A DNA stretch of 64,000 bases, taken from positions 124,001 to 188,000 of the forward strand of contig JAQFWX010000064.1 in the NCBI GenBank assembly GCA_027605045.1, given 5' to 3'. This document shows positions 84 through 51,062 of this stretch, one piece after another. The translations under genes and the position numbers were made by a program. This DNA is from Phallus indusiatus. Its lineage: Eukaryota; Basidiomycota; Agaricomycetes; Phallales; Phallaceae. The notes beneath the pieces were generated by a model. It was not told the origin of the DNA and did not search any database. It saw nothing but the letters and a program-made list of their open reading frames with translations. Numbering within the stretch: the stretch's first letter is position 1; each line of letters starts with the position of its first letter.

Positions 84-960
84 GTAGCCCTAACAAGGAC
101 TCCACGCACGTATAATGATGTCCAGAAATTTCTAGGACTTGTACAATACGTAGCGGCATACCTTCCAGGGGTAGCTGCATATACCACACCCCTATCAGGG
201 TGTACATACAACAACAGACCGTTCATATGGACGCTGTTGTTGAACAAGTGCTTTGACTCGATCAAAGCATTGACGTGAAAGGCTCCAATATTGAAGCCTA
301 TCGATGCTGACAACCCAGATCCAATTTGGGTTGTAACCGACGGCTCTAAATGTGGCGTTGGTGCCTACTACATATGGGCAAGGGACTATATGGCAAACAT
401 GTAGGCCAGCAGGGTTTCTCTCGAAGAAGTTCACCCCTGCTCAATACAACTACCGCACCCATGAGCATGAGCTCATTGCAGTACTTGAAGCCTTCCTCAA
501 GTGGGAAGACAAACTACTAGGGTGTAGATTCACCCTAGTAACGGACAACGAGGCCATGGTCCATTTCAAGACTCAGCCTCGCATGTCACCACGCCAAGCA
601 CAGTGGTATGAATACCTGTCTTGTTTTGATTACGAGACGATTCATGTCAAGGGTGTCACTAACAATGTCGCCGATGGCCTCTCTTGTTATTACGAAGAGG
701 ACTCTCCGGATGAGATACATCCCCCGGAGGTATATATCAATGCTGATGTACAACTTGATCCCGAAGAGGATCATCTTCCCATCGAAAGAAGGGACGAAGT
801 GAGAGTGAACGTTATTACACGTTCACAAGTATGAGAGGAACCTCAAGTAGAAGGTCCCTCAAATACTACACCTTCTGATATTACAGAAGCACAATCCGAT
901 GAGGATATACTTGCCCTAAGTGCAGAGCAAGACAGCAAGCTTCTTAAAGCCAAGATTGAG
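84..960 (+). pseudogene. Ty3/gypsy reverse transcriptase end and RNase H relic
   Basis: Around 110-190 the translation contains a motif like VQKFLGLVQYVAAYLP, the sequence following the RT thumb in Ty3/gypsy pol (usually [12 protein letters not shown]). The RNase H stretch follows: a VTDGSK..GVGA motif near 330-365 and, in another frame, THEHELIAVLEAFLKWE and TDNEAM motifs up to about 560, then a QARW-like segment. The protein is spread over at least two frames with stop codons, so it is inactive. It joins the integrase part at 1478 once the LTR-B insertion is ignored (reading ..KIEG-LDLADIL..). Confidence 0.75.
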
Positions 961-966
961 GGCTTT

Positions 967-1477
967 TGTCACGCGCCGTGTGCCGGGCGTCTAGATGGAA
1001 GTCCGGGGGGTTCAGACTATGGGACAGAAGGGACTTGGCTTCAGCTTATGTGCTGCGCCGGCTCAATCGACCCTGGATATCCCTTAATTTCAGACTAGAA
1101 GTCCGAGACAGCCCGGACGTAGTCCGGACAGGTCCGGACAAGTACTGGGAGCAGACTTTAAGCGAGGTAGATAAGAATAGAATTGATTATAAAGAGACTG
1201 GCTGAGGATAGACTCGAAATGAACTTAATATTCAGACTGGGGAGCCCCAGACGAAGTCTGGGGACTTTAAATACAAAAAGCTAGACTACTAGAACTAAAG
1301 GAGATATAACTAAAAGGAGACTAGTTACACAGCACCAGAAACATATCTGGCACTTGATTTCTAATGCTCTGCACAGAATGTCCCCATGGAAATGTCCTAG
1401 TCCGGACGAAATCCGGACCTCGGACGTACCGGACGTGGACAGAATAACGGACTACGCACTGTTGGACAAGTACTGAC
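967..1477. repeat. Solo LTR (family LTR-B, diverged) inside gypsy pol
   Basis: Begins TGTCACGCGCC and ends CTGAC (canonical TGACA less one base). The flanks GCTTT (962-966) and GCTTG (1478-1482) form an imperfect 5-bp target duplication. A central segment (GGGACTTGGCTTCAGCTT..., about 1032-1095) matches the LTR-B copy near 28857. The sequence is rich in TCCGGAC motifs. Removing it joins RNase H and integrase in one frame. Confidence 0.6.
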
Positions 1478-2554
1478 GCTTGGACTTGGCAGATATACTA
1501 AATATGGACGGGGATTGGGCGCTGGACCTCGGAGAGGTCCAGATTAGGATCGGGTGGCACGAGGGTCGTGACAGCTTTGCTGAATTCACCTCACTGCTAC
1601 AGCAAGGTTATCATAAGGACCCAGTATTCAAACTGGTCCTTGCCAACCTGAACGCTCACAAGGCGTTTGGAATTAAAGATCAACTGATCTTTACTAAGAA
1701 TCAGTTCCTCCGCGACATATCATGCGTCCCTCATAACACATTTTACAAGGGGAGGAGAATCACTGAGATCATTATCAGTGAAGCCCATCAAATTGTTGGG
1801 CACTTTGGACGTTACAAAACATCTCAGTATGTTAGACAAGCATACTGGTGGAAAGCGATGATTGAAGACATCGATACGTTCTGCAGATCCTGCGGAACGT
1901 GCCAGACCAATAAAGGGGAGAATAATCACCCCAGTGGTCTGCTAAAACAACTCCCGATTCCCAACAGACCTTGGGAATCAGTGGGAATGGACTTCGTCAG
2001 TCCATTACCCGTCTCAAATGGTCACGACTTTTTATTTGTCGTGATTGACAGACTGACCTCAATGGTTCGTCTGATGCCAACTACCACCAAGCTGACCACC
2101 AAGGGCACAGCTTGGCTATACCTCAGTGAAGTCATAAGACTCCACGGTGTCCCTGACTCAATTGTGAGCAACAGGGATGCACAATTTACTGCCAAGTTCT
2201 GGCAGGAACTACAATGCCTAATGGGGACACGATTGCTCATGTCCACGGCGTTCCATCCGCAAATGGATGGATCTACCGAGCGAGCCAATCGCTCAATTGG
2301 TCAAATACTTCATTCCGTGATACAGAACAATCAAAAAGATTGGGCCAAAGGGATCCCAATGGTGGAGTTTGCTATTAATAGCAGCACCAGCGAAACCACT
2401 GGTTTCGTGCCGTTTGAACTCAATTACGGCTACCTTCTCAGTTTGGGAAGGAAAATTGAGACGAACACCAAGTTCAAAGGTGTTCAACACTTTGCTCAAC
2501 AGGCAAAGTGGAATTTAATGATAGCGCATGACGCTATCATAGCCAATCGCGTTA

Positions 2555-2931
2555 CTGCTGTTATAGCATTGTAAGGCACAAGCATTTTTGAATGTCAAAA
2601 AAATCATTCCAATAAAATTGTCATATCTCAGTCTGTGATGCATATTTTGACTTGATTTTTGCTGTATCTTGTTCAGAAAAAAATCTAGTTTTATTTTTAT
2701 ATAAGTACATGTATTTATTGTTGATTTCAAAATTACATAAAATTACACTTGAATTTTGAAAACAATAATAAATACATGTACTTATTAAAAAATAAAACTA
2801 GATTTTTTTCTGAATAAGATGCAGCAAAAATCAAGTCAAAATATGCATCACAGACTGAGATATGACAATTTTATTGGAATGATTTTTTTAACATTCAAAA
2901 ATGCTTGTGCCTTACAATGCTATAACAGCAG
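2555..2931. mobile_element. Palindromic MITE with TA target duplication (copy 1)
   Basis: Nearly the whole 377 bp is one inverted repeat: the left arm starts CTGCTGTTATAGCATTGTAA and the right arm ends in its reverse complement. TA dinucleotides flank both ends (2553-2554 and 2932-2933), as for Tc1/mariner-type MITEs. Deleting it with one TA joins the integrase frame. It has no coding capacity. A shorter relative lies at 8890-9220. Confidence 0.85.
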
Positions 2932-3042
2932 TAAACAGGCTCACTACACGAACAACTCTTGGTGAGATGCACCGGAGTATAAAGAGGGTGACCTTGTCTA
3001 TCTCTCGATGAGGAATCTCAACCTCCCCAAGGGGAGAGTTAA

Positions 3043-3385
3043 TGTTAGGGCAACTCAGGGCACACATCTAGAGGAGGGAAAACCTAAGATCTATTGAGGG
3101 ACAACGACTAACTACTCACCTAGAGGAGGGAAAACCTAAGAGAACAAGCTTAGGTATCCCCCTCTAGGGAAAACGCATATAAGTACCGAATATGAGGCGC
3201 CCGACTGATCTCCATGGGATCCGAGGAGATACAAACAGAAATCGAAAGAAATCGAAGAGATCGAGAAAACGAGGGAACTAATGGAAACGGCAAAGTACGG
3301 GAAATGAAGGAAATCGTAATACGAAATGAAACCGAAAGAAATCGAAAAGATCGAATAATCGACGAGGCGCTAGCGTACTGTAACA
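3043..3385 (-). repeat. Solo LTR (family LTR-A) in gypsy integrase
   Basis: Starts TGTTAGGGC and ends GTACTGTAACA, 343 bp, with a perfect 5-bp target duplication GTTAA at 3038-3042 and 3386-3390. It is homologous to the LTRs of the young element at 32615 and 46659 but carries an extra ~45-bp segment with a second copy of the CACCTAGAGGAGGG motif. Removing it restores the integrase frame (..PKGRVKKLIPRYVGPY..). Strand is given relative to the coding sense of the young element. Confidence 0.9.
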
Positions 3386-4877
3386 GTTAAGAAGTTGATC
3401 CCGCGTTATGTGGGACCATACAAAATATTGTCCGTTAAGGACAATATCACAGTGAAACTTGAGCTCTCTGAAGAGCTCAAGCAATGTCGCATAAATCCCG
3501 TATTTCATGTGGATTTGATTAAACCTCACATCGCCAATGACAATGAGAGATTTCCGTGCCATGATACACTCACGGCGTATGATTTTGGACAGCCAGACGA
3601 TGCTGAATGGCATGTCAAGGAACTCCTAGCTCATCGCTGGAGTGGAACTCGCGAGAAAGATCTCGAGTTCCTAGTCCAGTGGACCCTTGGGGATACCACT
3701 TGGGAACCTTACAGTAACTGTAAGGACTTGCAAGCTCTAGACGAGTATTTGCAATTACGAGGCGTAAATGAGCCTCGGCAGCTGCCACAACTATCCAATC
3801 ATGGAGAGTCGCGGACCAGCAACAAGCACCCAGATCCCACTCGGGGATCTGCTTGAAGATCCCGCCCACAGGGATCCACTGGCACTTCACCGCTACACGG
3901 TGAGGTAATTTTCACCTTGGGCGTTCCCAGTGACCGCCCAAGTATATAACTCAAAAGTCCGTCCACGGCCTTTTCTCCCTCATCACCCCCATGCCTGACA
4001 GCAAGGGAAAGCAGCGCAAACACTCATGCTCACAGTCACCTACGCCGCAACCTATTAGTAGGTTCAAAAAAGCAGAGGCTCAATTGGCTCTGCAGAGGTC
4101 CAAATGGACCTTAGATGCAATGGACGGATGCATATCTGTCTATCATAACAACAATAGTTGCACGGTGTGCAACGACTTTGCCAACCATTTGGCAGGCCCT
4201 GCTGGTAGCGGGGCAATCATCCTTGACCATCAAATGGTCAAAAAGACCGTATATAGGGCCTTTCCCTTTATGTATAGGGACTACTGTCATCTAGATGAAC
4301 GTCTAGATGAATCAGAAAGGGACATCAAGGAATTGACGGACCATCTCGACGAGGCCAATCGTCGAGTATGCGAGCTGGAGGCTCGCATCGCTGAACTTGA
4401 ACATTCAGCAGTGACGGTCGGACCGTCAATCACTCCATCAACCTCCAAGAAGAGGTCCCAAGATCAGGCAGATAACGTGCCTGATAAGACCCAGGCAAAG
4501 CCAATGCCTGATGTATTCAATGACATGTTGTCTGACGACGACATGGAAGACGTAGTCGATGATAACGACTATGATGATGACGCATCCATTGCGTCGTCCA
4601 CCAAATGCAAGCCTCAGCGTACCTACGCTGATGCAACCAAGGCATCGGGCTCTCGCGATACTGCCACGGTTTCTCCAAGGAAACCCTCTGGTCTGTACCC
4701 ACGGACCAAGCCAGGATGGGACTCCAATAGGGACCCATGGCCCTTCTTTGTAACGGGCTTCGACCCCACTGTTAGTGGGGATCATTCTCTGGTGCCTGGC
4801 ACCCCCAACCCCACTGCATGGTATAACACCTGCAGCCTCGACGAACTATTGTTCGTCGAGATTGGAACCTGGGTTTG

Positions 4878-5769
4878 TGTAATGTATTCTTATAGTTTGC
4901 CTACTGGGGTGCTACCAGAATAAGAATAGTTACAATTACTTGCTGAGAGTTTGCTTAGGCACTGGCTTCACAACAAAAGCCTGTTGCTGAAGAATGAGAT
5001 CCAAGGGGTCTACTCTTGTTATATGCTGTTTTAAATGCAGTAGACACAACTGATAGTGTGTTCTGCAAGTGATAGAGATAGCTGAAGACTTGTAAACAAG
5101 TCTTATAGTAAGAGAAAGATAAGAGGAGATTGAGAGATAGAAAGAAAAGGGCCTTTAAGGCTATATTCAATTGTACTGAGTACAAGACAAGTGGGTAGTT
5201 AAGCAGTGATGATCAAAAGTGGGGAAAACAGGTCTAATTTATAAACTTTTCTCTGGGAAAAGATTAGACTGATAAGGAAAGATTGATTAGAAAGAAAAAG
5301 GGGAAGATAGGAACAGATTAAAGATTAGAAAGATAAAAGATAACAAAGCGCAGGGTCAAAGGTGCACATGTGTCATCTGGTGAGAATAAAATCCAAGATC
5401 CAGGGAGATTAGATCTAAATCTATGGAGATTAGATCCAAGATCCAGGAGTTATAGATCTGGTGGGAAATAAAGGATAAAAGAATAGCATATAAGGAGAAA
5501 CCATGGAGAAATGAAGGAGATATTAATAAACAAGGGAAACATGGCAAAACAAGAGTCCAGAGTCCATTCTTGATGACCAAGCAATGAACTCAGAAAATAC
5601 TTGACTTCTGAGAGTGTTTTGACCATAACTCCATGAGTTATTTACCAAATCCCTTGGAATGACTTGGGTTTTATAGAGTTTTAAATTGTTTTTGACTTTG
5701 AATGCTCTAGGCCTTGAGCCTGTCTTCAGGAAGGGGGTATTTAGGTCAAAATGACCTTGATACATGACA
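4878..5769. repeat. Solo LTR (family LTR-L, 892 bp)
   Basis: Starts TGTAATGTATTC and ends GATACATGACA, with a perfect target duplication GTTTG at 4873-4877 and 5770-5774. A relative with the same ends lies at 29229-29857. Removing it keeps the third ORF in frame (..GTWVWTDPPV..). Confidence 0.85.
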
Positions 5770-5867
5770 GTTTGGACCGACCCCCCAGTGTTCACGTACC
5801 CCAACGACAGAGGGGTTCACATGCGTATTTTATATGCATGGACTCGCTGGCGCAGATCCATGAAGGA

Positions 5868-6702
5868 CACTGGAGACATTGTAGGGTTTAGCCAAAAAAA
5901 GGATCCTAAGAAAATTATAGTTCGAGGTATAGACTATTGATGATTTACCAAATTGCACAATTATATTATAATTAATACTCAGATTAAGGGATTCTGGTTT
6001 GGAAAATTGTCAGTATACTGCTATAATATCTTGGTTGAATTATGTAATAATTCTTTATCATATAAGCCCATGATCAATGTTATCCATTCAGTAAAATAAT
6101 AAACAGAATGAAACTTACATTATCATCATCCATATTGAAGAATGTTCTGAAAATGTTGTTTATATTTATTGTGAGAATATATTTCTATTATAATTTAGAT
6201 GCATGGGAAAACCCTAATTTTAAGCATGAGAATACTCTTTGTAATATTAGAGTTTTGCTGGGAAAACCTTAATAATACATGGATTCCTAGAAAATGTTGA
6301 GAAAACTCTAATATCACAAATTGTGACCTTAAGTTTTAATTACATAGAAACTCAATATTTATCACACCCTCAAAATTATGATAAAATACTTTATTGACAA
6401 ATAATTATATCAACTTGAATATATAATTTTCCACTATAGTTAATAATAATATATGTTTTAGTTTGTATACTGTTTGACTGAATAGAGAAAGTTATTCATA
6501 GTGTTATATAAGTAAAAATTATTACAGAATTTAACTAAGATAATAATAGCAGCATACTGACAATTTTGCAAGCCAGAATCCCTTAATCTGTATATTAGTT
6601 ATAATATGATTGTGCAATTTGGTAAATCATCAATAGTCTATGCCTCGAACTATAATTTTTTTAAGATCCTTTTTTTGGCTAAACCCTACAATGTCTCCAG
6701 TG
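5868..6702. mobile_element. Non-coding DNA transposon with ~125-bp terminal inverted repeats
   Basis: The left end CACTGGAGACATTGTAGGG... is repeated in reverse complement at the right end (...CCCTACAATGTCTCCAGTG). The inverted repeats extend about 125 bp on each side (5868-5995 and 6575-6702). The centre is very AT-rich and has no convincing coding sequence. Flanking bases are GGA and AGA; no clean target duplication is visible. It sits inside the third ORF, which reads on in frame on both sides. The CACTG start could suggest a CACTA-like or hAT-like origin, but I cannot assign a family. Confidence 0.75.
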
Positions 6703-7109
6703 AGACTCGATTGGGACCACTATTCGAGTGGTGGCAATCACACGTCAACAGCAACACAATCACCGTGAAATGGCGAGAATCCCAACCAACTGTTTCGTCG
6801 CTGCTGCCAGGACGCCAGTATCACAGACGACGTCACAACAATCATTGGGGCACCACCCCTTCAGCTCCCACTGCTGGACCTTCAATGGAGGTTCCCTATG
6901 TGGAGTCCACCACTAATTCGCCCCCTCCGGCAAACACACCACTCCCAGTGGATATTGCTGAGAAAGAACTCGTGATCGACCCCAATCAATATGAAGTCCT
7001 GGACAAACCAGGAACTGGCCCTCAAGGCAATATTGAGATGGCCATGGATTATAATGCGAAAGACTGAAACTTATTCATCGTGCCTGAGTTTGACTTGACG
7101 CTCAAGTCA

Positions 7110-7120
7110 GCGGGGGAGGA
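7110..7120 (+). other. Polypurine tract of the gypsy element
   Basis: GCGGGGGAGGA lies immediately before the 3' LTR start (TGTAACAG at 7121), where plus-strand DNA priming takes place in LTR retrotransposons. A perfect hairpin (TGACTTG / CAAGTCA, about 7092-7110) abuts it. Confidence 0.75.
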
Positions 7121-7868
7121 TGTAACAGTTCCGCTACATGCAGCGGACTAGGGTGCAGGTTTGGCTTTTAAAAGCACGGGTACCCATGGGAAAAACTTGC
7201 GAGGGTGCGGGTCTGGGTCTGAGTAACCAAGGGTACCTGAAAACAGGTACCCAAACCCATGGGTTGGCACCCGTGAACAGCCTTAGTTTTGCCAATGCTA
7301 TGTTTCTTGAAAGGTATAAATACTGCATGTAAATACTTGTAACAGCAGCAATTCTACCGATACAAGTTGTCTCACAGTTTAAGTCTCAGTTTAAGTCTCA
7401 TTAAGTCAAGCTCAGTTCAAGTTCAAGCCCAGTGTTTCGCCTCTAGTCTTACTTCTACACTCACATCTATATCTTTGGATTAACTCTGAGTGAGGTCTCA
7501 AAGTATAAACTAGCGATTTGTTTCTATTTAGTCGCTTCACTAACGTTTACAGAAATCATCAACATCATTGATTTCAAGTCCTCCCCCTAGTTGCATTTGT
7601 TCAAGCTCACTGCCGACTTCGTTCATTACTCACACTTTGTATACGATCACTTTTAGTCATTGCAGTTGGTGTTAGAGTTTGTTTGTGTTAGTTTGATATC
7701 GACACATACATCTCCCCCCCTATTCCCACCCACACACATCCTCTCCCTCATTGAATCCAGCACCAGGACATGCTCCATGGAAGACTAAACGACCTCAACA
7801 TAAAAATCTTTGTAGTTTTCTGATCATTTATAGCCAACACATAAAGCTATATACTTCAGAATGTTACA
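7121..7868 (+). repeat. 3' LTR of the gypsy element (family LTR-H)
   Basis: Starts TGTAACAGTTCC right after the polypurine tract and ends AGAATGTTACA. It holds a TATA box (GGTATAAATA near 7313) and a hAT-type MITE near its start. A partial relative lies at 27298-27867. A 5' partner is not in the window, so the boundaries rest on the TG...CA ends and the polypurine tract. Confidence 0.7.
7149..7286. repeat. hAT-type terminal-repeat MITE inside LTR-H
   Basis: A run of GGTACC-rich palindromic words between GGGTGCAGG and GAACAGCC. The same sequence appears in inverse orientation at about 8604-8750 (AAGGCTGTTCAC...) and diverged at 24855-24985. The ends resemble hAT-type non-autonomous elements. 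I could not identify an 8-bp target duplication with certainty. Confidence 0.5.
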
Positions 7869-8830: not shown

Positions 8831-8889
8831 TACTTAGCACCCACTTATGTAAACAAAAATTGAAAATGTAGATATCAAAAAATTACTTA

Positions 8890-9220
8890 CTGCTGTTATA
8901 GCATTGTAAGGCACATGCATTTTTGAATGTAAAAAAATTCATCTCAATAAAATTGTCATATCTATTTTTGCTGCATCTTGTTCAGAAAAAAATCTAGTTT
9001 TATTTTTTAATAAGTATATGTATTTATTGTTGTTTTCAAAATTTCAAAATTCAAGTGTAATTTTGAAATTTTGAAAACAACAATAAATACATATACTTAT
9101 TAAAAAATAAAACTAGATTTTTTTCTGAACAAGATGCAGCAAAAATAGATATGACAATTTTATTGAGATGAATTTTTTTACATTCAAAAATGCACATGCC
9201 TTACAATACTATAACAGCAG
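8890..9220. mobile_element. Palindromic MITE with TA target duplication (copy 2)
   Basis: Shares both ends (CTGCTGTTATAGCATTGTAA and its complement) and most of the arm sequence with 2555-2931, but lacks a segment near each arm's middle (331 bp in all). TA flanks at 8888-8889 and 9221-9222. A 22-bp remnant of a further end lies at 9292-9313 (ACTATAACAGTAGTAAGG). Confidence 0.85.
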
Positions 9221-11353
9221 TAAGCTTTTTGTGTCATAATGTTTTCATTTAGAACTCGTTTTCATAGCTAAATTTAAAATATGTCGTATAGTAGAATACT
9301 ATAACAGTAGTAAGGAGCATCAAGACGAATACTTGAATGCATGTCAGAAGAATAATTGGGAGCCTAAAGGCAAAGCCGCAAAAACCCTTACAGGCCAAAC
9401 CAAGACCAAAGTGTGTCAGATTCCATTTACCAAGAGTAGATTCAGGTGATTGTTAGTTGAATGGATGGTTGGATATGATGAGGTATGTTGAACATTTCAC
9501 AGTTGGCTTATAATAATGATCTTTCATAGAGTATCAACCTTGTCGAATACCCACCATTTTGAAACTTCATCTTATTCCTCCAAGACACTTTGGAAGACAA
9601 GGACATACCACACTGAACTACTATCAGATGGTTGATATCAACTATTCATGAACAATATTTCAAAAAACTCAAATCACAATTACAGGTGTTTATTATTTAT
9701 TATTTCTGAGTATATATCTAATCAAATTAGGGATCAAAGGGAATGATTTCCTTGACCATTGATAGTTGGGACAATAAAGTGGGCCTACCTAGGTGTTATG
9801 GCTCATTATCTGGAACAGACAAATGAAACATTGTCTCATGGCAAGCTTGAGCTTGAGCTGAAATCGGCATTGATTACCTTTCTCCCCACACCTGGTTGCC
9901 ATACCAGTCAAGTGCTCGCGAAAGCACTACTCAAAATTACAGATAGAGCTGGCATTACAGAAAAGGTAAGTTAATTAAAATCTATTTGTTCTTGTATTCA
10001 CCCATCATCATAGGTCCGTAGTATTAGCACAGACAGAGCCGCCAATATGGTGGCAATGGTGCAATATTGTGAACATCTACTCAAATCTTATGATATTGAA
10101 TTTGATGCACTTCATTCACAAGTGATGTAAGGTTTTTTCTTGTGAATTTTTCTGGGTAATTCAACTCATTATATGGATGTTTTCTGCATACTCTTCACCT
10201 GGCTGTGAATGCAATGATCGATGCATTAACTGCCCCTAGAGCACAACAAAACCCCACAGCAAGGTTCCACTCCAAATTTGATGATCCTAATTATCTTCTC
10301 TCACAGGATCTTGAAGACGCCCTGAAAAGAGATCCCATTGCAATTGCACATGAAATTATCAATCTCATTCGTATGTCTCAGGTTTACCACACAGAGTTTT
10401 TATCTCTAATTGAGTATGAGAATCAGGCGCAAAAATGGGTTGACAAAACTAATGGTCAAGGAAGTATTGTTATGCTACCAAAACTGACTCCAATTTGGGA
10501 CATGCCCACTCACTGGGGTTCAGCATATCTCAGCATTTCATGCATGCGCCTTTTGAAACAGGTATGTACTATGTACTACATGTGTTAGTTGATCAATTAT
10601 CTCACTATCTTCAGCCGCTCGAGATCTATATGTCCAATCACTCTGATATTTTCAGACACACTAAGTTAATGGTGTCAGAGTGGACTGTTTTAGATCACAT
10701 TGATGATATTCTTGAGGTATTTTCTGATTTATATCAGTGGAATTATCTGACACAAATATCAGTATCCATATATTCTGCAAGAGATGATGTCTCATGAATC
10801 AACTCCAATGTTGGCCTGTTCATTTCCCGCATATGAAAGTGTTTTAGTGTCATTCAAAGAGGCAGTCGTATATGAAACATGCCATCCAAGCCGGAATTGA
10901 TAATATGCAAAAGAATTACAATGAGCATGTCTTCTCAAAATTGTTCATCCTTGCAATTGGTGTGTTTAATGTTATCTTTTATTGGTGAATATTATAAAAC
11001 TCATCCATTCTAGCTATCCATCTGTCAATGTGAATGAGATGATTTGAATGTAAATGGTCTAAAAATGGTGTCAATTATGGTTGTAATGTGATTTATGAAG
11101 AGGTTTAAGTCATTTATGTTTACTAGTAAGGATTGAGTCATACTGTTGACACATTTATATAGCTTTACAAGTATCAATCCAAATTGTCGCCATCCACACC
11201 ATCTGTCCCTTCTTACCAAAGCTCCCAAAAGGATACAAGATTCAAACTTTATAGTGATTTTCTCGATGACCCAAACAGTACTTCCACAAGACAAATATCT
11301 GCCTGCCCTATCAAAAAGGAGTTTGAGTGGTACTTCGGCCCTAATGCTCTAGA

Positions 11354-31835: not shown

Positions 31836-31962
31836 TTGCGGGTATCTTTTTTTTTGTGTGTACCCATTAGTTCTCGGAACCCAAACTCGAAGTCCCAGAA
31901 AGGGATTGGAAAGGAGAAAAGAGGATCAGAACACAAGGAAATGAAGAAATAATGGCACGGAA

Positions 31963-32226
31963 TGTAACGGTTCCGCTATGAGCAGTGGACTACTATTAAC
32001 CATAGTACATATTCGTATATACATACAATTGCATGCAGACGATTGTCGCCTGCACAAGTACCTAGTATTATGTAATGTACATAGGTGCCGTCACACCAGT
32101 AAATACTGCGTAACGGTAAAGGCGCCGGCAGCCTTTCTTACCTGCACTTGCAAATATACAGCTTTATACTGTTTGTTGTGAGTCCGTAAGAACCGGGCTA
32201 ATCGTAAACCGTAACGAAACGTTACA
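31963..32226 (+). repeat. Solo LTR (family LTR-I)
   Basis: Starts TGTAACGGTTCCGC and ends ACGAAACGTTACA, 264 bp, perfect target duplication CGGAA (31958-31962, 32227-32231). The first ~35 bp resemble the start of LTR-H (TGTAACAGTTCCGC). Confidence 0.9.
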
Positions 32227-35243: not shown

Positions 35244-38200
35244 TCAAGTATCTACTTCGGGAACAGGTTTAAAAAACTTCGGATCAGGGCCAGGTTTGTC
35301 GGGGTAAGCTTCGTGAAACGCTGCCACAACATCGGGAGCGTTGGCTATGTCGGAGGCATTGATCCAGGAAAACTCTTCATCGGTGCCTTCGTAGCCTAGC
35401 CATCGTACGTAGTAGTGGAGCTGTATACGGCAACGTCGGTCCAATTTGGAATCTAAAACCTCGGCGACCTCATACTCCATCACGCTGTCGACTTCGACTG
35501 GTGGTGGGGAGGTTGCACTCGGTTCGGAATGGTGTTCGGGACGTGGGGTTCGAGCATGGATACGTGGAACACGGGGTGGATGGCTCGCATGTGAGGAGGG
35601 AGCTTGAGGGTGTACGACAGGGAGCCTGGTTGGGCAATGATCTCGTAAGGTCCTAGGAACCTTTCGGCGAGCTTCTTAGAGGGTCGGGTTGTCGAGATGA
35701 ACTTGGATTTGACGTAGGCTTTGTCGCCGATCTTGAATGCTGGTGGTTCGGAACGTCGCGAGTCAGCACTATGCTGATAGCGTCGTTGTGCATCGGCGAT
35801 GTGCTGTTTGAGTTCTTCATGGAGTTCTCCGAGGTCAGTGACGAAGGTTCGGGCTGGTTCGGAAGAGAGGATACGGTCTAGGTGGACTTCGAGGTTGGGG
35901 TGGTAGCCCTTGTTGGCAAAGAACGGAGTAATTCCGGTGGTGGCAGAGATGGAGTTGTTGTACGCGAACTCTGCGAGTGGTAAGAGTTCGGACCAGTTAT
36001 CCTGCTGGTAGTTACAGTACACGCGGAGGTACTGTTCCAAGGTCTGGTTCATCCGTTCTGTTTGTCCATCGCCCTCGGGGTGATATCCTGAGGTGAAGTG
36101 GAGCTTCATGTTGAGGGCGGTGCCTAAGGAGCGGAAGAACTTCGATACAAATTCGGAACCACGGTCGGAGGTGACATGGCTCGGGACACCATGTTTCGAG
36201 AAGACATGCATGACGAAGAGCTTGGCGAGCTCGGGGGCGGTGATGGTGTCGACTGTGGGAATGAAGATGACCTGCTTGGTTAGGCGATCTACGATGACGA
36301 GGATGTCAGTGAAACTGTCAGACTCGGGTAACTTCTCGATGAAGTCCATGCTTATCGAGTTCCATGGCTTGTCGGGAATGGGGAGTTGCTTTAGGAACCC
36401 GTAAGGCTTATGACGTTGGGACTTGTTTCGGAGGCATGTGTCGCAGGTCTTGGCGAAATTTTGAACGAAGTCGCGGAGTTCGGGCCAGTAGTATTCACGC
36501 TGTACTAGCTCGAGCGTCTTGTTCTGGCCGAAGTGGCCGGCAAGGATATGGTCGTGTTTGTCTTGCAAAACACGTAGGCGAAGGTCATTCTGGTCGGGAA
36601 CGAAAATCTTGCCTTTGAAACGGAGTAACCCATCGGTCAAGGACCAAGGGTCGGAGGGGATGCGAGGTTGGGAGCGGATAGGGGATCATGAGGGAGGGCT
36701 GCGCGAATGTCTTCATGGAGCTGGGCGATGTCCATAATCTTGGCTCCTCGGAGTGCTAGAGGTAGTAAGTATGTTGCTCTAAGGGACGATGCCAACTGGT
36801 CTTGGGAAAACATGGGTCGGAAGTTGTGAGGATTGACAGTGGCATAGTCGCTACTCCCTCTTTTGCGTAGACGTCCCACCGTCGAGTTAGAGCATCGGGC
36901 TTGGCGCCTTGGCGGCCAGGTCGGAATCGAATGACGAGGTTGAACTGAGAGAGGTACTCAGACCAACGGGCTTGACGGCGGGTTAGCATTTTGGTAGAGG
37001 AGAAATAGACGAGATTCTTATGGTCGGTGATGACATCGATAGGGGTCGCAGATCCCTCGAGGTAGTGACGCCAGCGCTTAAAGGCCTCGAAGATGGCCAA
37101 TAATTCTTTATCGTGGACGTCGTAGTTGAGTTCGGGACTAGTGAAAGTCCTAGAGTGAAAGGCGATAGGGTGGAGGTCACCATTCACATAGATGGAAAGG
37201 ATCGCGGCGAGGGCGTAGTCCGAAGCGTCAGTTTCAATGACAAGGGGTGCATCGGGAATCCAATGGGTGAGGACGGGTGCGGTGGTGAAGGCGGCCTTGA
37301 GAGCATCGAAAGCTCGCTGGCACTCTTCTGTCCAATCCCAGTCAGTACCTTTACGTGTTAAACGTGTTAGTGGCACTGTTATTTTGGAGTAGTCATGGAT
37401 GAAACGACGATAGAAGTTGGCAAACCCGAGGAAGGACTGAATATCCTTGGTCCTACGAGGGGGAGGCCACTTCTGGATTACTTCGACCTTGGAAGGGTCC
37501 ATCGAGAGCCCTTCTGTGCCGAGGACAAAGCCGAGGAATTCGACCTTGTCAGTGTGCCAAACACACTTCTTAGCGGAAGCATAAAGCTTATGGTGGCGGA
37601 GTCTTCGCAAGACTTCGCGCACATGTTGGACATGTTCTTCTAGGCTGTCAGAGTAGACTAATAGATCGTCAATGTAAGCTACAACAGAAGTATCTAAGAG
37701 GTCGGCGAAGACCTCGTTGACAAATCGTTGGAATACTGAGGGGGCGTTAGACAATCCAAAGGGCATCACTAGCCACTCGAACGAGCCATAACGAGTCCTA
37801 AAGGCCGTTTTCCATTCATCACCTTCTGCAACGCGAACAAGATGGAACGCGTGTTGCAAGTCGATCTTGGAGTAGATGCGAGCCTTGCGAGGCGAGTCTA
37901 AGAGGTCGGAGATTAATGGAAGGGGATAACGGTCCTTCTTCGTGATCTTGTTGAGACCACGGAAATCCACACAGAGGCGGAGGGAGCCATCCTTTTCTTG
38001 ACGAAAAGGACGGGTGCGCCATGAGGCGACGTTGAGGGTCGGATGAAACCACTTGCGATGTTTTCATCCAGGAATTCGCGAAGGGCCTCGAGCTCTCTAG
38101 GGGACAGTGAGTAGATGGGCCCTAGAGGGGGTGAGGTACCTTCTTCCAAAACGATTTGAAGGTCGTATTGTCGATGAGGAGGTAACGAGTTGGCCTGTTG

Positions 38201-38992
38201 CTTGGAAAAGACATCGGCGAAGTCGTGGTACTCGGAAGGAACAGAGGAAGGGTCGGGAGATTCCAAAGATGCAGCGAGCGTGGAGCTCAGCGGGCTGGGA
38301 CCTAGGGAAATTGAGTTTAAATGCCGACGAACCTTTAACTTTGCAAGCGCGCATAAAGGAAGTCGCAGTCAGGAAACCAATGTCAATTGGTTGTACGGGA
38401 TATTCGGGACGTGACAGTTCTAGGGAGGGTTGGACGACAGGGTCCACGGTGTGCGTGAGCGAGGCTGCGCGCACATAGGTCGACTTCGGGAAGGTTTCGC
38501 CTTTACTGAGTCTCGGAAGGTTACACTGCTCAATCTCCAGTCAATCAAAGGATTGTAGCGGAGGAGCCAGTCATGCCCAAGTACTACAGCGCAGGTTGAT
38601 TCCAGGGGTGTCACGTAGAAAGGGATCGGGAGTACTTCTCCAGAGGGGAAGCGGACGGGAAGGGAAGCTACACTAGATACATGATTGTTAACAGTACCAT
38701 CGATAAGCATAATGGGGATCGGGTCAATAGGTTCGGTAACTAAGTCGTTTTTCTTAACAAAGTCACTATCTATGAAACAATTAGAGGAACCGGAGTCAAC
38801 AAGACCTCGGAAGGGGTCGGGAAGGATTTCGGACGTTAAGTTCAATATACAAGATTTGGGATCGGAAAGAGCTACGGAATTGAAACGAAGAAATTTAACT
38901 GCTTTTAATGTTTTATAGTCAAGAGAATCGGAATCAAAAGAAACAGAGACAGGAGAAACGGGGACTCGTTCTGTGAGGTCTTTACGACCCAC
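35244..38992 (-). pseudogene. Inner element pol: protease, RT, RNase H, integrase, chromodomain (frame breaks)
   Basis: Domains in order on the minus strand: aspartic protease (LVDSGSSNCF, about 38800); RT with FVKK-DGS (about 38000), FGLSNAPSVFQ and the catalytic AYIDDLLVYS (about 37675); RNase H with ETDASDYA (about 37225) and DHKNLVYF; integrase zinc domain (H..GHFGQNK..C.TC), DDE core with SMDFIEKLP, TSDRGSEF and GQTERMNQ, GPYEI box; chromodomain (YEVAEVLDSK..YYVRWLGY..). Frames change near 38,490, 38,320, 37,990, 36,860, 36,645 and 35,485. Most are resolved by adding one base to a short homopolymer. Without them this would be one chromovirus polyprotein. Confidence 0.88.
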
Positions 38993-39029
38993 AGGACGAG
39001 TTTCTGGTGGGTCGCAGACTAGTTTTTTA

Positions 39030-40858
39030 CCTCTTCGATTGTCGCCTCGGGAATGGACGACAAAGGTTCGGTAGCAGTTGCGGCACGAGCTTTAGCAGGT
39101 TTGTTGTTGCTGCTGCTGCTGTTGTTGTTGCGGGATCGGGGCAATCTCGGGCCATGTGTCCCTTGGTTGCACAGATGAGGCACAAGCCTTCCTGACTCGA
39201 CGGTCCTTCTCGGTAGCTGTAAGCTTACCATCAGGTCCTAGGTGTTCAGGCTTGGGTCCCGGGGTTGTCGAAGTCTTCGGCTTGTTTTTGTTGTTGCCGT
39301 TGTTGCTGTTGTTGCTGTTGCTGTTGTTGCTGCTGTTGCTGTTGGACTTAGATGCAGAGTCGTTCGACGTCGCAGATGGCTTCGCCGAACTAGAGGACGA
39401 GTTGTTCTTCTTGTCGTACTTACTGAACTTGGCTTGCAAGGCTTGATATTCCTTGCGCTCGTTCTCTTCGCGACTCTTCTTGGACCAATATTGGCTATCG
39501 ACCTTAAGAACGGCTTGACGGAGCTGTTCGAAAGTGTCGTCTCGGAGGCCTTGATTGGTGATGGCCGCTCGGATGCGTTCGGGAATGGCTCGGCGGACAA
39601 TGTAACGGAGGGACCGATCGTCAAAGGAGACGCGGTTCTGGTACTCGGCGAACTTGATAAAGTACTCGGTGGCCTTACCATCATTGGGGAAGGCGATGCG
39701 ATGGATGGCGTCTTCATCCTCATCTTCGGGGTTGAAGGAACCGAAGAGGTTGTTGAGTTTGGTGATGAAGGCCTTCCAGTTGTGCAGGAAGTCGTGGGCA
39801 ACGATGACATCGCGAGATGCACCGAAGGTTCGGAAGTAGGACATGGCACTGCCTCGGAGGAAGGAGATGGCGAAAGCCACCTTGGCAGTGTCTTCTTTGA
39901 ACTTCTTGGGCTGGGCCATGAAATAAAGGTCGCACTGGTAGACGAAAATGCGAAGCTTCTCGTCACTGGAACCATCATAGGTGTCGGGATCGCGAGCTTT
40001 GACACCGGACTTGTCCCCGCCGAGTTCCCCAGTACTCTCGGTGATAGCCTTAATCAGTGCCGAGAGATCTTTTGTTCTGATGTAGCCACCAGAAGGGGAT
40101 CGGGAACGGGAACGAGAGCGTCTTGAGCGTCGCGAGCGGTGACCACGTCGGCGACGACGACGACGTGACTCAGAGTCGCTAGACTCATCATCAGGATCAT
40201 CATCATCATCACCAGGGTCGCTGGGAGGTCCACGGGGTGGTTGGAAACGGGGTTGTCTGGGAGGTGGCGGAGGAGGAGGTTCGGAAGCGGGAGGAGTCGG
40301 GTTTCTTCTAGGACCACGACCTGGAGAGTCGACTGGGGTGTGACTGCTGGGAGGTGGGTTCGGAGATGGGTTAGGAGGTGGTTCTGGGGCTTGCCCGGAT
40401 GCACCAGGCTCGGATCTGTGTTGGCGGTGATGGTGGCGACGACGACCGATGCCGTTGTAAGAGTCCTCGGAAGACTCGGAATCGTACTGGTCTTCGGAGG
40501 GGGTTCTAGCGCGGGCCTTGCCTTTGCTTTTCTTCTTTCGAGAAGGACGTGGGGTCGACGCGGCCTCGGAAGATTGTGGAGTCGCGGGAATGATCTCATC
40601 GCCAGAGGGAAGGGGTCGGACAGATGCGATCATGGACTCACGATGCTGACGTTGTTCTTGAGCATCGAAGAACCTCGTCGAGATGGTTTCAGTGGTGTCA
40701 TTGGTGATACCATTGATCTGGTCCTTCTTTGCTTCGCGATTCAAACGTCGGATTGCTCGTTCGTCCGCGGAGGTGGTGGGAATAGGGGCAGGTGATACGG
40801 GATCAGTTCGGATGGGAAAAGGTTGACCCACCCGAGAGATAGTAACGGTTCGGGTCAT
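39030..40858 (-). pseudogene. Inner element gag with CCHC zinc knuckle (one frame break)
   Basis: ATG at 40858 (MTRTVTISRVGQPFPIRTD). The N-terminal half is Arg/Ser/Pro-rich (about 40,580-40,080, including a dense RRRRR/RS stretch that may bind nucleic acid), followed by a capsid-like retrotransposon gag domain (MSYFRTFGAS.., about 39,960-39,480) and an Asn/Ser-rich linker. The zinc knuckle CLICATKGHMARDC (CX2CX4HX4C, about 39,130-39,175) lies in the next frame, reached by one extra G in a GG pair near 39,178. The frame then stops at about 39,030. Gag packages the element RNA. Confidence 0.85.
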
Positions 40859-41533: not shown

Positions 41534-42956
41534 GCTCTGGACCATAGCCCTCCCATCTAACCTTGAACTCCAGACGTCGACGGAAAACACGACTATCCAG
41601 TATTTCTTCAACCACGTAGTGCTCACCATCGTCGCGAATCTCCGGGGGTGGAGGAGGTTTAGAACGACGACCCGGTATGCTGTCTGGTACCATTGGTTTC
41701 AACTTACTGACGTGGAATACAGGGTGAATTCGAGACATCGATTTCGGTAGAACGAGTCGATACGCTCGAGTTCCGATTTTTGCTGCAATGGGAAAGGGGC
41801 CCAGAAAACGATGCGATAACTTGGCCGATGGACGAGTGGTCTTGATGTCGCTAGCATCTAGATAAACCTTGTCTCCAGATTTGTAGTCAGGTGCCGGCAA
41901 ATGTTTACGATCATAGTACTTAGCCATGTCGTCCTTAGCCTTAAGAATCGCAGCATGAGCTTCCTCCCAAGAACGAGACATCCTATCTTTGAAATCATTA
42001 ACCGATTCGATCTTCGATTCAGTCGAACGCGGTTCGAAGCCCATTCGAGGATGGCGACCAGTGTCGAGTTCGAAAGGCGTAGCTTGAGTGGCCGAATGAA
42101 CATGATTGTTATATGCGAATTCAGCCATGGGTAGCAGTCGATCCCAATCGTCTTGGCGTTCGGAGGTAAAGATACGGAGATACTGCTCTACTTCAGCATT
42201 AGCTCGCTCCGTCTGACCATCGGTTTGGGGGTGGTATGCAGTGGAGCGTGCGAGCCGAATACCGAGTAGTCGAGAGAGTTCTTGGGTAAAACGAGACGAG
42301 AACTGAGGTCCGCGATCCGATATGATCTTCTCGGGTAATCCGTGCAATTTCCAGACGTGTTGGAGATACAGAGACGCAAGGCCAGAAGCGTCAACGGTAG
42401 TAAACGTCGGGACGAAGTGAACCCGTTTTGTCAGCGAATCTACTACCGAAAGAATTGCATCATAACCATTCGATTCCGGGAGTTCGACAACGAAATCGAC
42501 CGATATGAATTGCCAAGGTCGATTTGGAGTTTCGGTAGGTTGCAATTCACCATACGGAGCATGTCGAGAAGGTTTCGTACGCATACAAGCGTCACAAGCC
42601 TCTACATACCGCTGTACATATCTAGAGATCCCAGGCCACCAAAAGGTTCGCGATACCAGTTCTAGCGTTTTAAATCGACCTGGGTGACCCGCGAGTTTGG
42701 TGTCATGGTGTCGTTGGAGGATTTCTCGACGCAGATCGTCCACTTCGGGAACATAAATCTTCCCTCGGTAGTAAATGACGTCTTGATCTTCAGCCCATTC
42801 ACTGGTGTGAACCGATCTCCCGCCTATCGCCTTGAGGGATTCGATGGCTTTCGAGACGCTATCTTCTCGTTTGCCTTCTCTGTTCGCTTTCCGTATCTGG
42901 CCTAAGAACTCGTCCTCCTCCTCTAAGGCGGAATGTTTGCATGGCGTTGATCGCAA
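41534..42956 (-). CDS. Outer element integrase (N-terminal zinc domain, DDE core, chromodomain start)
   Basis: On the minus strand: HHCC zinc domain ([18 protein letters not shown]), DDE core with [16 protein letters not shown] and [12 protein letters not shown], a GPF/Y-like LGPFPIAAK box, [11 protein letters not shown], and the first half of a chromodomain ([26 protein letters not shown]) that stops exactly at the inner element's LTR and resumes at 33074. An upstream frame overlap with the RT ORF at 42859-42956 shows one frameshift in or next to a GGAGGAGGA run. Integrase inserts the cDNA; the chromodomain guides site choice in chromoviruses. Confidence 0.9.
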
Positions 42957-45234
42957 ACATTTCGGGTCGGATTAGGGTGATACCTTGATTGTCGAACTTT
43001 CCCGAACCATGATCAGCACGACGCGACAGACCGTCAGGCTTACCCATCGATTTGCCAGGTATATGCCGCAGGGTGAAATCGAAACGAGCGAGATAAACCG
43101 ACCAACGAGCTTGTCTACGATTTAGATTACGAGCCGTCATAAAATACTCCAGGTTTTTGTGATCCGTGCGAATGTCAATCGGATGGGTCGCACCTTCTAA
43201 AAAATGTCGCCATTCCTCCAATGCTCGAATGATGGCCAGCATCTCTTTGTCGTGGATTTCGTAATTTCGCTCCACTGGGCTCAGAGCCTTCGAAAAGAAG
43301 GCTACTGGGTGCCATTTGTTGTCCTCGAGAGAAGGCTGAGACAAAACGGCACCTGTTGCAAAGTCAGAGCTGTCAGCTTCCACTCGGTAAGGTTTCGATG
43401 GATCGGGAATCGCAAGAACCGGTGCAGAGGTCATTGCCGATTTCAGAGAATCGAAAGCTCGTTGACAGGTGTCGGACCAGATAAACGGAACTTCCTTCTT
43501 GGTGAGACCAAACAAGGGGACGGCGACCAGCGAGAAATCTTTGATAAATCGACGATAGAAGTTCGCGAAACCTAAGAACGACTGAACTTCGGTAACGTTC
43601 TTTGGGATTGGCCAATCTCTAACACCCGACACTTTCGCGGGATCCATTTCAACAGTGTTCTCGGAAATGACCAGACCTAAATACTCGATCTTAGTACGGC
43701 AGAATTCGCATTTCTCAGCCTTGAGATAGAGTTTATGCTCCCTTAGTCGTTCCAAGACACGGCGTGTGATGCGATCGTGTTCTTCTTTCGTTCTCGTATA
43801 GATCAGGATATCGTCGATATAAACAGCCACGACCCCTTCCGTGATCATGTCCTCGAAGATCTCGTTCATCATCGTCTGGAAAGTCGCCGGACTATTAGTT
43901 AAGCCAAAGAACATGACCAAGGGCTCGAACAATCCTCGATTTGTGCGAAACGCTGCTTTCCACTCATCGCCTTCTTTAATGCGAACGTTGTTGTATCCCC
44001 ATCTAACATCGAGTTTCGTGAAGTACTTCGCGCCCCTTAATTTGTTCACGAGTTCGGGGATTAAAGGTAATGGGTATCGATTTTTGATGGTCATCGCGTT
44101 GAGAGCCCGATAGTCCTGAATAAGTCGTAGGGAGCCATCCTTCTTCTTGATAAAGAAGACCGGGGAAGCCATGGGTGATTTCGAAGGGCGGATTCGACCC
44201 GAACGAAGATTCTCTTCCAAAAACGCATCGAGTTCTTTCTGTTCGTTAGGCGACAGAGGGTACACCTTGCAAAACTTGGGATCTGAATCGGGTAAGAGCT
44301 CTATTGCATGATCCCATTTCTTTGGAGGAGGCAGGGAATCGAAAGATTCTTTCGCGAAGACGTCTTCGAAATCGTGGAACATTTCGGGAACGATCTCTCG
44401 AAATCCAGATTTGGGTGCATCCCTCGTATTGTTCGCGTGCGCTTGAGCCAACCGCTGTGAGATGGTTTCGGTTGCTCTGATACGGCATTCATCCAGGGGT
44501 TCTGAATTAAGGGAAACCGCGAATAATCGATCACCTTCTTCTGGGTGAAACTCGTCTTCCACATTCACGAGATCTGGCATATCTGGATCAGTGGATTCAG
44601 TTTCGTCCAGGGAAACGGGAGGGATCGCTCGAACTGAACGCAGGAAACGTTTCGGGCCTTTCTTTTCAGTAGAAGGCGGTCTACAAGATCGACATTCGGG
44701 ATTACACCGGGTTAACTCGACCTCTCCAGTCGAGTAGTCGATTACCGGGTTGTGAGCCTTGAACCAGGGTAGTCCCAGCAACACTGGATATTTGCCGAGG
44801 GCGGTGACGGCAAACATGACACGTTCGGAATGGGTTTGATATCGCATCACCAGGTCCACTACATGCGTGATATTTCCCGCCTGATTGGGAGTACCATCAA
44901 CATTGAAAACGGGAATCGGTTTCGGTAATCGAATCTTTGGGAGCCGATTCTTCTCGACAAAGTCCTGATCGAGGAACATCCCACTAGCACCAGTGTCGAG
45001 CATCGCCTTCGAGTGAATGAGATCGCCCGTATCGGTGCTCTGAAGTTCTACATCGATCTCGAGCTTCTGAGTGCCGGCAGTGGCATTGAGACGGTATTCG
45101 CGTGGAATTCGCTTGCGTCTTCCAATCGAAAGGCGACGAGGACCAGGGATCAGAGGGTTCGAGAGAGGAATGGATGCATCAGAGTCAATAGAATTCGAAT
45201 CAGAAATTTCATTGCACTTGTCTTCTACGTACAA
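42859..45234 (-). CDS. Outer element protease, reverse transcriptase and RNase H
   Basis: Open frame of about 790 codons; the track start at 45234 is a TTG, so translation more likely reaches it from gag by frameshift or reinitiation. Aspartic protease [10 protein letters not shown] (about 44,985); RT with [19 protein letters not shown] (about 44,140), [16 protein letters not shown] and catalytic YIDDILIY (about 43,815); [12 protein letters not shown]; RNase H with [13 protein letters not shown] (about 43,370), DKEMLAI and DHKNLEYF. All core catalytic residues are present, so this part looks functional. Confidence 0.92.
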
Positions 45235-45275
45235 TACATCGAATCTATTTGACGTTGGCAGTGAGGGCGCATCCC

Positions 45276-46514
45276 TTACTCGCTGCCGTTCTGAAAATCC
45301 TCTCTAGTTGCAGTGACCGCGATCTCGTTTTCTTCCGTAGCGATCTCGACACGATTCTGTGTTTCCAGCACATCTTGTTGAGCAAATCGTTGCTCGAGGA
45401 TCTCGTCGATTTCATCGGTCTGCATAAATCGAACATCGAATGCGCGTGGGCAGTCCTTAACAAGATGACCTAATTGTCCACATCGGAAACACCGGGCTGT
45501 CTCAGTCTGTATGCGGCGGCGAGCAGCATCAACCTCCATGGCATCATTTCGGGCTGGAGGTGCAACATTAGCAGGGGCAGAAATCGGTGGTCGTATTGGG
45601 TGAGACATGGCGGCAGGGATCGGTGCGCGAGGTGGAGGAAAGGGAGGTGGGGAGTAAATAGGGGGTCCCGTCGTACGTTGGTAGATCGGGAATGGGCTGG
45701 GTCGAGTTCGAGAGATCGGAATCGACGTAAGAGGGGTTGAAGTCGAATTACCGGCAATGACTCGACGTTGGGTGGCATTGAAAGCATCGTTGGTACGGCG
45801 AGCTTGATTGAAGAGTCTAGCAGCTTGAACCCATCCTTCGTAGTCGCTGTAATCGGGTCGATTCTGCATCGTTCCCACTTTACTAGAGATCTCCCGGTCT
45901 AAACCTTGTCGATAATACGTCGTTAGCGCAAGGCCATCATGAATCGTAAATCCAGCGCGATCTACGATTATGCGAAATGCGTCGGTGTAATCGTCTACAT
46001 TTCGACCTCCTTGAGCATAACGTCCCGAAAGAAGGAGATTCAATGCATCCTCGGCTTCGGTTACTGGGAAGAATTCAGAACGAAACTTTTGTCGGAAATC
46101 TTCCCAGGTCTCATAAGGAGCCAATCCCCGGTTGTACTGGGCCTGAACAAGTTCGGCAAAGGCACCAGCGCGTCCACTATTCATGTAGGATAGTACCCAG
46201 ATGACTTTGGTACTGAGATTCGGGAAATCGCCACCGCATACGCTCATGTAGAGTTCGACCGAGTTCCAGAATGTACGGCCATTTTTGCGATCTCCGTCAT
46301 AGGCGAGAGGTACAGCAGGGCGAGTGTTTCGAGACGATCTTGTCTCGTTTTGAGGATTTGGAACTGAGGCTCCAGGATTAGGGGTGTTCGGATTAGCGGG
46401 ATCGGCAGTAGAAGCCTGGGGGGGAAGAAGTCGGTTGAGATGAGTTACAAGCTCTTCCATTCTTTGTTCAATCGCAGTGAGGCGAACGATGGGATCACTC
46501 TCAGGCTGTTCCAT
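45276..46514 (-). CDS. Outer element gag
   Basis: ATG at 46514 (MEQPESDPIVRLTAIEQRME), 412 codons. A coiled-coil-like start is followed by a proline/asparagine linker, the retrotransposon gag capsid domain (FWNSVELYMSVCGGDFP.. to YYRQGLDREISSK), and a CCHC zinc knuckle CFRCGQLGHLVKDC near residue 345. It ends 42 bp before the pol frame, which lies in a different frame. The frame is intact. Confidence 0.92.
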   Translation of the reverse strand: MEQPESDPIVRLTAIEQRMEELVTHLNRLLPPQASTADPANPNTPNPGASVPNPQNETRSSRNTRPAVPLAYDGDRKNGRTFWNSVELYMSVCGGDFPNLSTKVIWVLSYMNSGRAGAFAELVQAQYNRGLAPYETWEDFRQKFRSEFFPVTEAEDALNLLLSGRYAQGGRNVDDYTDAFRIIVDRAGFTIHDGLALTTYYRQGLDREISSKVGTMQNRPDYSDYEGWVQAARLFNQARRTNDAFNATQRRVIAGNSTSTPLTSIPISRTRPSPFPIYQRTTGPPIYSPPPFPPPRAPIPAAMSHPIRPPISAPANVAPPARNDAMEVDAARRRIQTETARCFRCGQLGHLVKDCPRAFDVRFMQTDEIDEILEQRFAQQDVLETQNRVEIATEENEIAVTATREDFQNGSE

Positions 46515-46645
46515 GACGAAAGGAATCGAAGAACGAAGGGCGGAGGGGTCGTTTTATGGGCGAAAAGCGTCGGGAACGTCTGAGACACTGCTGACGAAGA
46601 GTTTCCGAAGGAAAACGACAATAGAAACGACCGGTCCGAAGGTAG

Positions 46646-46656: not shown

Positions 46657-46658
46657 AC

Positions 46659-46958: not shown

Positions 46959-46963
46959 AACAC

Positions 46964-51044: not shown

Positions 51045-51062
51045 AGTGCAGCACCGAAGTAT

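Follow-up and report, generated by a model that had tools for sequence, protein, structure and literature searches.

The 64,000-nucleotide window of Phallus indusiatus DNA analyzed here (contig JAQFWX010000064.1, positions 124,001 to 188,000) starts inside a decayed chromodomain Ty3/gypsy retrotransposon, and the question that this locus raises is why the coding sequence of the element is packed with short perfect inverted repeats. The reading that best fits our computations, to which we assign a probability of roughly 60%, is that the RNA of the element has been selected for local pairing overall, which would amount to genome-scale ordered RNA structure (GORS), known from some RNA viruses, in a long terminal repeat (LTR) retrotransposon. 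Selected RNA structure is favored because the stems exceed codon-preserving shuffles, the minimum folding energy difference (MFED) reaches 42%, paired bases show compensated changes, inherited changes are fewer in stems, and stems are partly conserved in a sister family.

Perfect stems with arms of at least 8 bp and loops of 1 to 9 nt were counted in stretches of the window and compared with shuffled sequences (from 1 to 100 shuffles per test). All 18 hairpins listed by an earlier reading of the window (the original prediction) were recovered with fully complementary arms, and the excess over chance that it had claimed was confirmed. Positions 84-4877 contained 25 such arms, compared to a mean of 0.4 and a maximum of 2 in 30 dinucleotide shuffles, and positions 84-7120 contained 27 (mean 0.93, maximum 3, dinucleotide shuffles). 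When four open frames of the window copy were clipped to the element's own segments, they held 2, 6, 4, and 8 arms, with means of 0.06, 0.44, 0.05, and 0.22 and maxima of 1, 2, 1, and 2 in codon-preserving shuffles (100 for each frame); summed over the frames, 20 arms were observed versus 0.8 expected. Two other gypsy elements in the window, in which the original prediction had seen no such pattern, possessed 1 (35244-40858) and 0 (41534-46514) with 0.57 expected for each, and positions 46515-64000 had 3 versus 2.2 expected. An excess was also present outside the element, at 7121-35243 (25 arms versus 5.6 expected). Many stems of that stretch recur at look-alike places, apparently in repeated or foldback insertions.

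By comparison with a fuller copy of the same family (family A) at locus L015 of the host genome, the segments belonging to the element hold 22 of the 25 stems. The listed hairpins had all been assigned to coding sequence; 17 of the 18 lie in the element's own sequence, and the remaining one (1522-1542) lies in an insertion. The layout of the window copy is as follows.

96..966, plus strand, decayed family A sequence coding for the end of reverse transcriptase (RT) and RNase H, 92% to L015, 4 arms of at least 8 bp
967..1568, insertion without counterpart in L015 and the other copies compared, contains hairpin 1522-1542
1569..2554, plus strand, family A integrase coding sequence, 93% to L015, 6 arms of at least 8 bp in 1574-2554
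2555..2931, foldback insertion with 183-bp arms (2552-2734/2752-2934) that reach a few bases into the element
2932..3042, plus strand, family A integrase C-terminal coding sequence, 92% to L015
3043..3384, insertion
3385..4877, plus strand, family A sequence for the pol end with its SH3-like and chromo domains, followed by open reading frame (ORF) 3, 90% to L015, domains by homology to L015, 12 arms of at least 8 bp
4878..5769, insertion, partly similar to sequence at locus L003
5770..5867, plus strand, family A ORF3 continuation, 94% to L015
5868..6701, insertion with 160-bp inverted arms
6702..7150, plus strand, element 3′ end, closest to sister family B, 83% to the 3′ end of the B copy at locus L037, no match to the A sequences compared

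The hairpins of the element are listed next, with arm length in bp and loop length in nt.

249..269, hairpin, arm 8, loop 5
310..334, hairpin, arm 8, loop 9
515..540, hairpin, arm 10, loop 6
805..826, hairpin, arm 8, loop 6
1674..1693, hairpin, arm 9, loop 2
1956..1979, hairpin, arm 9, loop 6
1986..2006, hairpin, arm 8, loop 5
2391..2407, hairpin, arm 8, loop 1
2488..2510, hairpin, arm 8, loop 7
2518..2540, hairpin, arm 9, loop 5
3425..3447, hairpin, arm 9, loop 5
3458..3481, hairpin, arm 10, loop 4
3707..3725, hairpin, arm 9, loop 1
3831..3851, hairpin, arm 8, loop 5
4223..4241, hairpin, arm 8, loop 3
4287..4310, hairpin, arm 9, loop 6
4345..4366, hairpin, arm 8, loop 6
4368..4388, hairpin, arm 8, loop 5
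4412..4428, hairpin, arm 8, loop 1
4463..4485, hairpin, arm 8, loop 7
4614..4631, hairpin, arm 8, loop 2
4837..4860, hairpin, arm 10, loop 4
7091..7109, hairpin, arm 8, loop 3, inside the family-B-like 3′ end

The insertion at 967-1568 (∼600 bp, absent from L015) itself carries three arms of at least 8 bp, at 1122, 1245, and 1522. The foldback insertion at 2552-2934, located within the integrase sequence, is related to a second foldback insertion at 8886-9224 (166-bp arms). The segment at 6702-7150 had been called ORF3, but most resembles the 3′ end of family B; the window copy may be a mosaic of families A and B, or it may have retained an older 3′ end. A scan of the window with Rfam gave no match reaching the gathering score.

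Hairpin richness is a trait of the family. A 601-bp integrase probe identified at least 40 copies, the window's included, at 93-100% identity in the host genome (67.2 Mb in 206 contigs), and 20 of 40 probe matches, chosen from the list, were fetched. In L015 the element extends from ∼1111 to at least 9991 and comprises gag, protease, RT-RNase H, integrase, a chromo-like domain, and two more 3′ frames. Its Pfam matches comprise a gag zinc knuckle (CCHC), protease, RT, RNase H, H2C2 integrase, Tf2-1-like SH3, and a chromo-like domain, of which the Chromo match (24.7 bits) falls slightly below its cutoff of 25.1 and the rve match (29.2) lies below its cutoff of 32.6. The family A LTR was recognized from a repeat of L015 1111-1430 after the 3′ end in the copy at L010; other pieces mostly end earlier. 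With RT, RNase H, integrase, and LTRs, the element is a retrotransposon, and the gag CCHC motif, the protease, the order RT-RNase H-integrase, the chromo-like domain, and the LTRs place it with the chromodomain Ty3/gypsy elements (chromoviruses). It shares with them the whole set of domains listed above, and differs by its hairpins and by two extra 3′ frames. Of these frames (L015 8236-9920 and, in family B, L037 7048-7923), those that were scanned had no Pfam match above cutoff; ORF3 gave only weak coiled-coil matches, and no relative was found for the ORF3 of family B. Related proteins come from a number of named basidiomycetes as well as many unnamed sources, and no relative elsewhere was found at the DNA level in the viral and genome contig collections searched.

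Eight stretches of L015 were each tested against 60 dinucleotide and 60 codon shuffles. In seven of them the arms of at least 8 bp exceeded every shuffle of both kinds (LTR 5, second gag frame 3, gag/protease 5, pol 11 and 10, ORF3 13, and ORF4 3), with codon-shuffle means of 0.07-0.47. The first gag frame had zero arms of this length and, for arms of at least 6 bp, 7 versus 1.3 and 1.75, a count equal to the largest codon shuffle. Thus, by computation, perfect local stems are in excess in the LTR and in every tested coding stretch except the first gag frame, whose excess is limited to shorter arms. The excess is local, with loops of ∼0-16 nt and none beyond 20 nt; direct repeats were barely above chance (3 versus 0-1). 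In total, L015 possesses 173 nonoverlapping stems of at least 6 bp in 8.9 kb, with arms of 6 to 12 bp. Could the protein sequence, codon usage, or base composition give rise to such stems as a by-product? Stem phase differs slightly among the three classes, which is a weak point in favor of this explanation, but the four L015 frames with 11, 10, 13, and 5 arms yielded only 0.25, 0.38, 0.47, and 0.22 in codon-preserving shuffles, and the summed window frames agree. Composition and codon usage as the cause were ruled out by the two kinds of shuffle, and we give the by-product explanation virtually no credence.

MFED values were computed for 350-nt fragments with 15 dinucleotide shuffles each. 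The mean for L015 was 41.9% over 8.9 kb (range 25.9 to 69.6%), with all 25 fragments at or above 25.9%, and two further A copies gave 42.8% and 38.2%; the decayed window copy gave 37.7% (7 fragments). The corresponding values were 17.0% for the B copy L037 (range 0.8 to 27.6%), 7.7% and 2.2% for the two control gypsies of the window, and -0.8% for window positions 47000-64000. Using 300-nt fragments, three further B copies gave 17.3 to 19.6% and other gypsy copies of the genome (n = 8) gave -2.2 to 5.8%. Against codon shuffles, the A pol retained an MFED of 39% (z -6.2) and the B pol 17%.

Family B is 75% identical to A in the RT region. Its copy at L037 has 264-bp terminal repeats that are 100% identical, and it contains 101 arms of at least 6 bp versus 15 expected, with merely 7 versus 1.2 for arms of at least 8 bp. 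A candidate third family at L042 was rejected as another B copy (97.9% to L037). Elsewhere in the window, positions 31962-32226 are 96.6% identical to the family B LTR with no further B sequence matched alongside, and are perhaps a solo LTR. The eight other gypsy copies, which match pol at 24-44% identity within the matched stretches, represent fewer than eight families, as L029, L032, and window 41534-46514 share match figures. Two of the eight, L031 and L036, were slightly above expectation in stems (4 versus 0.5 and 3 versus 0.2). Sister family B thus has the trait, and the genome's eight other gypsy copies lack it. Individual stems also persist between the families: 19 of 68 A pol stems have lost at most one pair in B (4.2 ± 1.9 expected), and 15 of 49 B stems persist in A (4.1 expected). 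Pairs with both bases changed between A and B numbered 23 versus 15.4 expected (z 2.0) in the one comparison and 14 versus 8.7 in the other.

Compensation within family A was evaluated for stems selected as perfect in L015, using 20 A copies (19 fetched plus the window's) compared with L015. Compensated Watson-Crick double changes occurred at 22 of 1248 stem pairs, versus 6.1 ± 2.3 when partners were permuted among like pairs; 4 were shared between copies (0.9 expected), 11 were confined to single copies (3.1 expected), and 7 were in the window copy (2.1 expected). No stem pair with both bases changed to a non-Watson-Crick pair was found among the 20 copies. Neither outcome named beforehand as damaging to the original prediction, namely a lack of excess over codon shuffles or copies without conserved stems, was observed when tested. 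Changes were then assigned to branches of a tree of the 19 fetched copies besides L015, together with the window copy and two B copies, rooted with B. Only changes away from the L015 base were taken, and the counts omit L015's own path, the branch leading to the A family, and the window branch, which is reported apart. Changes on internal branches mostly record active elements. These numbered 46 in 2496 stem bases versus 237 in 6385 others, whereas terminal changes (258 in stems versus 631 elsewhere) as a whole showed no avoidance of stems (Fisher p 1.2e-5 for the contrast). The internal-to-terminal ratio in stems was 0.178, compared to 0.298 ± 0.036 with a minimum of 0.208 for 100 shifted stem sets. 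Transversions showed the avoidance most clearly, with 1 internal change in stems and 49 elsewhere; terminal transitions were not reduced in stems. Several of the host's Piwi-domain and RNA-dependent RNA polymerase (RdRP) matches are duplicated, with similar copies on two contigs, as though two nuclear haplotypes had been assembled. Such a genome seems likely to make part of the shared changes allelic, and the internal/terminal contrast would then be blurred. On the basis of compensation, stem avoidance on internal branches, and stem persistence between A and B, inherited mutations tend to keep the hairpins paired, and the pairing looks maintained.

Outside the stems, internal-branch changes in the family A tree (L015 1111-9991) were strand-asymmetric, with 83 C>T versus 37 G>A. 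The window branch had 46 C>T versus 15 G>A, and terminal changes were closer to equal (203 and 163). The asymmetry perhaps reflects editing of the sense strand, or RT errors made on it, in active elements.

An alternative source of perfect stems is mutational drive. Short inverted repeats would then be generated and perfected in the course of reverse transcription or DNA repair, by template switching or by correction templated on a hairpin, with no benefit to the element. Template switching is expected to overwrite one arm. No such overwriting was found, as the variance of left-minus-right divergence between A and B was 3.56 in stems versus 3.18 in mock stems, and an arm difference of at least 4 occurred in 5 of 66 A stems, as expected (mock 5.5%). 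In all five of these stems, however, the left arm was the more diverged, as mutational drive might predict. This explanation would also account for the predominance of perfect stems and for single-copy compensations above expectation (11 versus 3.1). At 9 of the 22 compensated pairs no half-changed state was seen among the copies; at the other 13 such a state was present in another copy, which counts against mutational drive. Amino-acid identity between A and B was not lower in stems (0.78) than outside (0.74), and third-position divergence was lower in stems (0.525 versus 0.600). Given the similar divergence of the two arms, the amino-acid identity, and the third-position divergence, scattered changes, for the most part synonymous, were probably the main route by which the stems arose. 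Furthermore, the property is not seen in the other eight gypsy copies or in the window's two controls, so a host mutational process would have to spare them. Template switching is able to create and maintain hairpins elsewhere, according to the parts of PMC8794818 drawn on here; those hairpins resemble ours in being perfect local inverted repeats with compensatory changes, but they arise as single events rewriting runs of bases, and no general one-arm overwriting is present here. As a general cause, template switching was rejected for want of arm asymmetry relative to mock stems, and we judge mutational drive as a whole to be unlikely. Of the two causes originally proposed, selected RNA structure is thus the favored one, and the template switching of short inverted segments is unsupported.

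Several observations weigh against selection on RNA pairing. The analysis covers one genome, two families, and predicted RNA structure. Of the A pol stems, 49 of 68 are turned over or unaligned in B, and family B is weaker outside pol, with an MFED of 10-11% in gag and ORF3/4 (dinucleotide shuffles). The third codon positions alone gave p 0.059 for the branch contrast, and none of 5 genes was significant singly. Terminal transversions were also rarer in stems (14 versus 91), which makes terminal changes less than a strictly neutral control, and transitions on the window branch were not lacking in stems (39 versus 83, or 0.0156 versus 0.0130 per base). Finally, the interior mismatches of A stems, read on the plus strand, comprise 25 A.C and only 3 G.U, and the half-changed states at compensated pairs comprise 11 A.C and 5 G.U.

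These last counts raise the alternative that the target of selection is the minus strand, single-stranded cDNA, or both strands, rather than the sense RNA. The surplus of A.C weighs against the plus strand because plus-strand RNA should prefer G.U, and A.C mismatches, 19 of the 25 being invariant in the aligned A copies, are wobble pairs when read on the minus strand. The folding energy of the minus strand is also lower in absolute terms. The bias is, however, due in part to composition: among unpaired plus-strand bases, A makes up 41% and G 14%, and the ratio of A.C to G.U in stem flanks is 75:42. In family B the interior mismatches show a small bias (8 A.C and 3 G.U). Internal branches reject T>C and not A>G in A-U pairs (1 and 10 changes, respectively), which favors the plus strand, as do A.C-forming changes that are slightly more depleted than G.U-forming ones (odds ratios 0.42 and 0.61, descriptive). 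MFED is higher on the plus strand, a comparison confounded by the differing composition of the controls, and tetraloop motifs (GNRA, UNCG) were too few to decide the strand. The minus strand as the structured one, as deduced from A.C versus G.U, is therefore weakened by composition and flanks and opposed by the internal-branch changes. With the evidence on the strand divided, we consider selection on the minus strand, on cDNA, or on both strands to be rather unlikely.

Under selection for pairing of the sense RNA, the proteins of the element would be encoded in codons that allow well over 100 short perfect hairpins to form in the RNA, as predicted here. The molecule under selection would be the RNA. 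Since the majority of stems are not kept between the two families, the benefit would lie in overall pairing rather than in individual stems. Pairing might shield the transcript from host RNA interference (RNAi) or, also conjecturally, compact the RNA for packaging. Lower accessibility to small RNAs would be a plausible benefit, since the host genome has several Piwi-domain (Argonaute-type) and RdRP matches (no search for Dicer was made). Local stems, the longest being 12 bp in L015, would fit an RNA that has to serve in translation as well.

The closest parallel is the GORS of positive-strand RNA viruses, in which, as described for coronaviruses in the parts of PMC7642675 drawn on here, structure is maintained with turnover of individual pairings. 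The likenesses include a high MFED through the coding sequence, many consecutive local stem-loops, individual pairings that are poorly conserved between relatives, and paired sites that change less. For the element, the folding energy of L015 is well below that of dinucleotide shuffles throughout; its 173 stems, with loops to ∼16 nt, follow one another through the coding regions; pairings are poorly conserved, though the 19 kept stems exceed the 4.2 expected; and paired sites are less variable on internal branches (p 1.2e-5) but not on the window branch. It differs in being an LTR retrotransposon (the viral trait is linked to persistence), in the conservation of about a quarter of its pol stems between families, in stems that are largely perfect Watson-Crick, and in magnitude. 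The same portions of PMC7642675 quote MFED values of 15% for SARS-CoV-2, 7.5-10.7% for hepatitis C virus, and 12.5% for human pegivirus, with a maximum of 23.4% for vertebrate RNA viruses and one local peak above 50%. The 42% of family A corresponds to ∼2.8 times the value for SARS-CoV-2 and to 1.8 times the quoted vertebrate RNA-virus maximum, by methods that are alike and not identical. The element appears to work like GORS, although it is not filed in the viral group.

Among LTR retrotransposons, the RNA of Ty3 has been probed by others and has a well-folded core of ∼19-20% of its length (PMC11381356). The genomic RNAs of Ty3 and Ty1 resemble the element in carrying stable dispersed motifs, and the excerpts of that paper used here make no mention of a genome-wide excess of perfect hairpins, the feature of our element. 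No hairpin-packed or GORS-type retrotransposon was found in the literature within our coverage, outside of which lie most subscription journals and all preprints. Possible, though doubtful in our estimation, is the stronger proposition that an LTR retrotransposon lineage has recoded its whole genome as a near-continuous array of short perfect hairpins, an anti-silencing coat, with ordering above any RNA-virus figure that we found quoted and ranging from 17% (B) to 42% MFED (A) in one host.

If selection for overall local pairing is the correct reading, the known range of GORS would grow to include retrotransposons as well as RNA viruses. With structured and unstructured gypsy families side by side in one genome that also has RNAi-type genes, the purpose of such structure would be testable by natural comparison of small-RNA load, transcript stability, and copy number among family A, family B, and the others.

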